DNA of 34,217 nt from Phormidium sp. FACHB-1136 (GTDB taxonomy: Bacteria; Cyanobacteriota; Cyanobacteriia; Phormidesmidales; Phormidesmidaceae), in the NCBI RefSeq assembly GCF_014697375.1, contig NZ_JACJRS010000058.1, positions 1 through 34,217 of the forward strand, given 5' to 3'. Each line of letters starts with the position of its first letter. Within the stretch, counting starts at the first letter, position 1. Below, one piece after another: positions 6,240-6,524 of the stretch. Under the pieces are notes generated by a model that saw nothing but the letters and a program-made list of their open reading frames with translations, searched no databases and was not told the DNA's origin. The position numbers were made by a program, and so were the translations under genes.

Positions 6240-6294
6240 GGATGTCTGCGCTATGCTAAGCATAGGTGGATTGAAAGGCGCACTTCCTTCACAC
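6240..6294 (+). CRISPR. Delocalised CRISPR repeat with tRNA-Val homing spacer
   Basis: A degenerate repeat ending at 6277 has the stem CTATGC-TAA-GCATAG (6251-6265) followed by GTGGATTGAAAG, the same layout as the array repeats. Its upstream boundary is set by analogy to the 38-nt array repeat. The next 17 bases, GCGCACTTCCTTCACAC (6278-6294), are identical to the anticodon-arm region of the tRNA-Val gene on the minus strand (6488-6504). The matching gene site is preceded by GTA, which fits the GTN PAM of Cas12k. Type V-K CASTs are known to use such separate repeats with short spacers to home to tRNA genes. This fixes the assignment as a homing guide and not a chance repeat. Confidence 0.93.
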
Positions 6295-6311
6295 TTCGGG
6301 GTGAGAAGTGC
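6280..6311 (+). other. UUCG-capped hairpin overlapping the homing spacer
   Basis: GCACTTC (6280-6286) pairs with GAAGTGC (6305-6311), and TCAC (6289-6292) pairs with GTGA (6301-6304). The tip is C-TTCG-G at 6294-6299, with a two-base bulge and one mismatch. The 5' arm lies inside the homing spacer. The structure could define the 3' end of the short guide RNA or act as a weak terminator; no T-run is present. Confidence 0.55.
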
Positions 6312-6312
6312 A

Positions 6313-6449
6313 TTTAAGCGACACACAATGTGTGATCGATTCGTTGGCAAGCCCTAAACGACACGAATTCGATAAGGCGACAACGAATCAGTTAAGACGA
6401 CACGAAAGTGTGATCGATGACAACTAAATCGTTATTCGACACTTTTACA
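6313..6449 (-). repeat. CAST right end with phased TnsB-type binding motifs
   Basis: GACA cores start at 6320, 6360, 6379, 6399, 6419 and 6438, giving spacings of 40, 19, 20, 20 and 19 bases, so they lie on one helical face with one position (about 6340) lost. Read inward from 6449 on the minus strand the end is TGTAAAAGTGTCG, followed by TTGTCATC, GTGTCGTC, TTGTCGCC and GTGTCGTT. This resembles the TGTACAGTGAC terminus and TGTC-rich repeats of characterised V-K transposons. The predicted 5-bp target duplication is GTATG at 6450-6454. Its partner would be at the left end, outside the window. Confidence 0.87.
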
Positions 6450-6452
6450 GTA

Positions 6453-6524
6453 TGGGCGATACTGGATTCGAACCAGTGACCCCTTCCGTGTGAAGGAAGT
6501 GCGCTACCACTGTGCTAATCGCCC
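6453..6524 (-). tRNA. tRNA-Val (anticodon CAC)
   Basis: The 72-base gene folds into a full cloverleaf: acceptor GGGCGAT/ATCGCCC with discriminator A, D-arm GCAC/GCGC, anticodon stem CTTCC/GGAAG with loop TTCACAC (anticodon CAC, reading GUG), variable loop GGGTC, and T-arm ACTGG-TTCGAAT-CCAGT. CCA is not encoded. The 3' end lies 3 bases from the CAST end at 6449, so insertion left the gene intact. It contains the protospacer of the CAST homing guide. Confidence 0.97.
6488..6507 (-). other. Homing protospacer and GTA PAM within tRNA-Val
   Basis: Positions 6504 down to 6488 read GCGCACTTCCTTCACAC, identical to the delocalised spacer. Positions 6507-6505 read GTA, fitting the GTN PAM. From the first protospacer base to the transposon end at 6449 there are 55 bases. 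This is within the published insertion windows for V-K systems, roughly 49-66 bp from the PAM depending on the system. Confidence 0.92.

Follow-up and report, generated by a model that had tools for sequence, protein, structure and literature searches.

The window, the whole stretch of DNA that was analysed, is contig C215 in its entirety (34,217 bp). Near its left edge it carries, all on the plus strand, a fragment of hsdS for a type I restriction specificity subunit (137-769; Pfam PF01420, E 1.9e-16), hsdR for type I restriction subunit R (766-4107; Pfam HSDR_N 1.8e-33, SWI2_SNF2 2.9e-76) and a gene for a YgjP-like metallopeptidase (4104-4826; Pfam PF01863, 3.5e-59), which from their position are probable transposon cargo. 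Before them lies the end of a repeated element (1-107), a probable IS at which the contig breaks; the identical 107 bp stand at 34111-34217, and by blastn contig C52 opens with the same end (its bases 1-109). Downstream of the cargo is a cas12k pseudogene (4910-5530, plus strand) reduced to its C-terminal third, which spans model positions 414-621 of 623, lacks about 413 N-terminal positions and is interrupted in frame by a TAA (5168-5170). The PADLOC Cas12k profile matched its two pieces with E values of 1.9e-29 and 7.7e-49, although a Cas12j-labelled model scored slightly better on the first piece (3.4e-30) and the Cas12k profile also matched in 2 of 14 control genomes. We kept the Cas12k assignment because, against the full-length Cas12k encoded by Tildeniella torsiva UHER 1998/13D (G020), the pieces show 83% and 68% identity; the genome tool assigns G020 and the genome of the window to one genus. 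The window thus holds Cas12k-related sequence but no intact Cas12k effector.

Two identical copies of a 37-nt CRISPR repeat, located by repeat search at about 5975-6011 and about 6049-6085 on the plus strand and both ending in GTGATTGAAAG, enclose array spacer 1 (6012-6048, plus strand). The published position of the tracrRNA between cas12k and the array makes 5550-5973 (plus strand) the probable tracrRNA region, and the stretch that contains it, from ~4919 to 6085, aligns at 73% with G020. Array spacer 1 matches in 32 of 36 nt a repeated sequence at contig ends of the same genome; there are 15 such places, spread over 14 contigs, and the matched sequence begins at base 11 counted from the contig end and by reading has GTT in the PAM position. 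This repeated sequence may be an IS, and a Pfam search with a 60-aa reading of it returned no match.

Set apart from the array is a truncated, delocalised repeat, R* (GTGGATTGAAAG; 6266-6277, plus strand), which was read from the sequence and whose motif also precedes the anchor in G007, G020, L077 and L078. GGTGGATTGAAAG stands directly before a 17-nt anchor, or homing, spacer, GCGCACTTCCTTCACAC (6278-6294, plus strand), which forms a 100% complementary inverted repeat with positions 6488-6504 on the minus strand. That protospacer lies inside an intact tRNA-Val(CAC) gene (6453-6524, minus strand; ARAGORN, and Rfam tRNA at 65.6 bits), and directly 5' of it, read on the minus strand, the bases at 6505-6507 are GTA, a GTN PAM. 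The earlier note had equated the spacer with tRNA-Val(CAC) at 6504-6488 and had placed GTA in the PAM position, and both readings hold. It had also raised the concern of a 17-nt match scattered over many unrelated positions; the assembly (5.98 Mb in 260 contigs) contains the exact 17-mer only twice, as the spacer and in the tRNA, with no third copy, and the analytic expectation is 4e-6 chance matches of one given 17-mer in the window.

Attachment sites often lie in tRNA genes, and a junction with 17 nt of tRNA sequence nearby might likewise be expected if a tyrosine-recombinase element (attL/attR) had picked up or copied a piece of the tRNA that did not serve as a guide at all. The copy is, however, inverted and internal to the tRNA rather than at its 3' end; it directly follows a CRISPR-type half repeat and is itself followed by repeated GACA motifs, and the same layout is found in Cas12k loci at other tRNAs. 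We therefore hold such a capture to be exceedingly improbable and read the spacer as a guide.

The transposon end next to the guide (6300-6441, minus strand) was recognised by sequence reading and by comparison of left ends, and its repeated GACA/TGTC motifs are taken as putative TnsB sites. The earlier note had assumed this to be the opposite end of the element. Published V-K convention makes the CRISPR side the left end, which eliminated an inverted element with that side as its right end; the visible end is the left end, and therefore the missing one is the right end, beside tnsB. Two positions compete for the exact terminus: 6441 (TGTCGA...), 63 nt from the PAM, with CTTTT (6442-6446) as the predicted target-site duplication, and 6449 (TGTAAAAG...), 55 nt from the PAM, with GTATG (6450-6454), both within the 46-82 nt expected between PAM and left end. 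Among 20 left ends compared, 17 have a GACA exactly 19 nt inside the terminal ACA (L085, L091 and L096 lack this spacing), a rule derived from the same 20 sequences and free of a shuffled control; the ends that it defines lie 59-64 nt from the PAM in 16 of the 17 and 55 nt in one (L079). Applied to the window, the rule gives 6441, 63 nt and CTTTT, and the candidate at 6449 lacks the spacing. In the excerpted text of PMC9876797, ShCAST inserts at 61-66 bp from the PAM, with 55-70 bp counted as on-target, which puts the favoured 63 nt inside the narrower range and 55 nt outside it. Five of the eight bases between the two candidates agree with the empty site of a relative (G014).

Duplications predicted by the rule beside the TGT end (ACATC in G187, TGAGG in G231, GTTCC in G020) were not found by script, a search limited by G020 having no recognisable right end and by the right end in G231 (contig C68, L105), which by eye joins the start of another element's tniQ. 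In G187, by reading, TCCAT stands on both sides of the element nearer the tRNA, before its right end and after its left end; the left terminus there would therefore lie 3 nt outside the conserved block, at 56 nt. Both observations count against the rule, and with them weighed in we place the window's terminus at 6441 rather than 6449 with fair but not full confidence. The terminus at 6449, with 55 nt and GTATG, which the earlier note had proposed, survives as one of the two candidates, and the 19-nt spacing and the ShCAST range suggest that it is probably 8 bp off.

Of 57 genomes, 56 (with that of the window among them) matched positions 6450-7139 in a DNA search, many of the more distant matches being confined to the tRNA, and an aligned tRNA-Val was present in 26 of the 30 loci fetched, again counting the window's own. 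In G014 (L027) the alignment runs at 81% identity from the first query base, 6450, and the sequence to its left is not transposon, that is, the site is empty. The search for an empty site in relatives that the earlier note had proposed was thus successful: such sites exist in relatives. A 149-bp left-end probe detected, among the loci compared and outside the window's own copies, only L031 (G007) and L039 (G020). In both genomes the truncated repeat is followed by GCGCGCTTCCTTCACAC, which is identical to the tRNA of the genome concerned, just as GCGCACTTCCTTCACAC in the window is exact to its own.

The element of G020 (L064, L065, L076) shares with the window the target tRNA, the anchor register and a similar left end. 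Unlike the window, it has a 571-aa tnsB ORF, followed in turn by TnsC-like and TniQ-like ORFs, as well as a full-length 641-aa cas12k. The allele in its guide is G, in agreement with its tRNA, whereas the window's guide carries A; no right end was recognised in the G020 element. Similar elements also occur in records titled Nodosilinea (L077, L078). The type V-K character, anchor guide, tRNA target and GTN PAM named in the earlier note all recur in these related elements.

The same tRNA-Val is also occupied in other ways. In G029 (L035/L066) a different CRISPR-bearing element lies beside it, with a half repeat ending in GAAAC and a 17-nt match, ACACGGAAGAGGTCACT, whose 5' flank is CTTC instead of GTN; the contig stops short of any cas gene. 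Contig C316 of G187 (L068, L075, L106) has two anchor-like sites ~10 kb apart, which looks like a tandem insertion at one tRNA-Val.

TnsB, TnsC and TniQ are not found together in the window's element. With TnsC of G020 as query there were 0 matches in the window's assembly, against matches in 5 of 5 other genomes, G020 included. TniQ is represented in the assembly by one fragment below the cut-off on contig C192, and TnsB by a long copy on C52 and by a fragment with stops on C192, neither of them linked to the window. An exact right-end pattern of the clade, built from three relatives, matched only the window's own left end in the assembly; its reversed control gave 3 matches, and a decayed end would escape an exact pattern. 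The left neighbour of the G014 empty site (L027:1-1505), used as a query for the right end, had no match in the window's genome in a search run without a positive control. The other end flanked by GTATG, which the earlier note had suggested looking for, did not appear in these searches. The right end and the 5-bp duplication are unseen in the assembly, and the contig ends in a repeat, hence their absence is unproven.

A contig that breaks at a repeated element to the left of the cargo could belong to a V-K transposon that is intact and mobile today, with the genes absent here placed on other contigs. C52, with this repeat end at its start, a V-K-like tnsB and a right-end-like sequence, would be the place to look for them. 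The repeat end is shared by three contig ends (C215 left, C215 right and C52 left), with no proof that any two of them join. Against an intact transposon, the deletion in cas12k lies inside the contig and does not coincide with a contig break, and the TnsC query fails as described above. The TnsB of C52 matches a solved TnsB over residues 26-504 of 584, stopping at residue 504, and the next large ORF reads by eye like a helicase and not like tnsC. The right end on C52 (L061 9405-9500) is of the V-K type TGTACAGTGACAC, as at C157, and is flanked by transposase-like coding sequence (by eye) and by CCCGT, which is neither of the candidate duplications. An intact and mobile transposon is thus highly unlikely, and we favour a remnant whose decay had already removed much of the machinery. 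With its right-end-like sequence of the TGTACAG type and its CCCGT flank, C52 is also unsupported as a simple partner that would supply the missing half. A decayed N-terminal piece of Cas12k on C73 is likewise unsupported as the missing N-terminus, since 184 bp there are 90% identical to the element on C157.

That element is a second V-K insertion in the window's genome, on contig C157 (L015 10009-15289) beside tRNA-Gly(CCC). It has the left end TGTACAGTGACACG, the 17-nt anchor GTAGAACGTCAGCTTCC, a GTG PAM with the end 62 nt away, a long array and a cas12k split into two frames. Its presence, together with the good preservation of the relic's stretch from cas12k to the array, would fit a relic guide that continues to be made as RNA and serves the Cas12k and transposase of another V-K element in trans, against the same tRNA. 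The split of the other cas12k into two frames, the failure to find TnsC in the assembly and the differences between the two elements in repeats and ends all argue against such use, and we assign it an even smaller probability than an intact mobile transposon. The preferred reading remains that of a relic, a remnant of a V-K CAST whose remaining parts cannot home by themselves. The homing proposed in the earlier note thus appears right as to the kind of element and the past mechanism, and wrong as to a working element, with Cas12k truncated and interrupted by a stop and no TnsC found.

The timing of the decay was approached through substitution rates. The cas12k fragment differs from that of G020 by dN 0.164 and dS 1.438, the latter near saturation (Nei-Gojobori, own script), and comparisons among three related genes gave dN/dS pairs of 0.031/0.228, 0.063/0.415 and 0.069/0.551. 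The cas12k ratio is similar to those among the related genes, which suggests that function was lost late relative to their divergence.

To place the window among other Cas12k loci, 27 named loci obtained with one Cas12k query were compared. Fifteen of the 27 have, behind a TTGAAAG half repeat, a spacer with a match in a tRNA close by. Each of these 15 has a GTN PAM, and the spacer is exactly 17 nt long in 10 of them and 16 to 20 nt in the others. A further match, in L083, has neither a tRNA nor a GTN PAM and was taken as chance. Twelve of the 27 loci gave no anchor, seven with less than 2 kb of downstream sequence and five with 10 kb; three of the twelve (L099, L101 and L102) have a nearby tRNA but no matching spacer by script.

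The guide and tRNA alleles were compared across 388 genomes of the class with an anchor pattern that had one free base and allowed at most 2 mismatches. This pattern found nine sites in eight genomes, and tRNA-Val(CAC) lay in the fetched stretch of seven of the nine. The guide is exact to the tRNA in five of the seven (G000, the window's genome; G187a; G231; G007; G020), and G109 and G218 have one mismatch elsewhere in the spacer. The tRNA of G092 is partial, cut inside the protospacer, and the stretch fetched for G187b contains no tRNA. L078, which came from the protein search, adds a sixth exact guide-tRNA pair. Position 5 of the guide agrees with the nearby tRNA-Val(CAC) at all eight sites with a complete tRNA, being A in the window, G187a, G231, G109 and G218 and G in G007, G020 and L078; these sites belong to related elements and are not eight independent events. 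The occurrence of two guide alleles among elements that share one target tRNA amounts to a small natural test of guide-target matching. That V-K homing guides follow the allele of their target tRNA, by correction or selection and not merely by inheritance with the element, is a speculative reading that we consider rather unlikely; if true, guide-target coevolution could be tested in this genus, in which G014 has the A allele and an empty site.

We infer, taking the biochemical steps by analogy from published V-K work, that the window's guide directed an insertion beside tRNA-Val(CAC). In this mechanism the delocalised repeat and the 17-nt spacer would give a short crRNA that acts with the tracrRNA and Cas12k. 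The crRNA complex would have bound the tRNA gene next to the GTA PAM and brought in TniQ, TnsC and TnsB, with insertion ~60 bp downstream, just past the 3' end of the tRNA, leaving the tRNA whole. Later decay would then have deleted most of cas12k, and tnsC and a recognisable right end are not found today. Taken as a whole, the locus is very probably the left end of a V-K CAST that was inserted beside tRNA-Val(CAC) under direction of its guide and later decayed to a relic. Raw sequence, together with an empty site and close relatives, here confirms the published tRNA-homing rule for V-K transposons, and the locus also documents a stage of decay at which guide, PAM and target continue to match after the loss of most of the machinery. 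For all this the known mechanism suffices, and none new is needed.

That V-K elements home to tRNA genes with the help of truncated guide RNAs is already in the literature. A literature search of partial coverage, made with the inferred host name Nodosilinea and CRISPR-associated transposons, returned nothing, which is weak evidence that this locus is unreported. The excerpt of PMC9938897 describes for V-K elements an R* of ~12 nt, a 17-nt anchor spacer, a GTN PAM, 46-82 nt from the PAM to the left end and a left end that lies downstream of a tRNA directed toward the element, and the window fits each of these points, including the array beside cas12k. It departs from that layout in the deletion of most of cas12k and in the right end and tnsC that were not found; the same excerpt records degenerated cas12k genes, 12 of which were left out of the tree. 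As in ShCAST in the excerpt of PMC9876797, the left end is the one nearest the PAM. The target, tRNA-Val(CAC), differs from that of ShCAST. The window's terminus reads TGTCGA, against TGTACA, which we take to be the terminus of ShCAST. Finally, the crRNAs for CAST attachment sites are described in the excerpt of PMC11406308 as truncated, set apart from the array and aimed mostly at tRNA genes, and from the attachment-site guides described there the window's guide shows no difference in mechanism.
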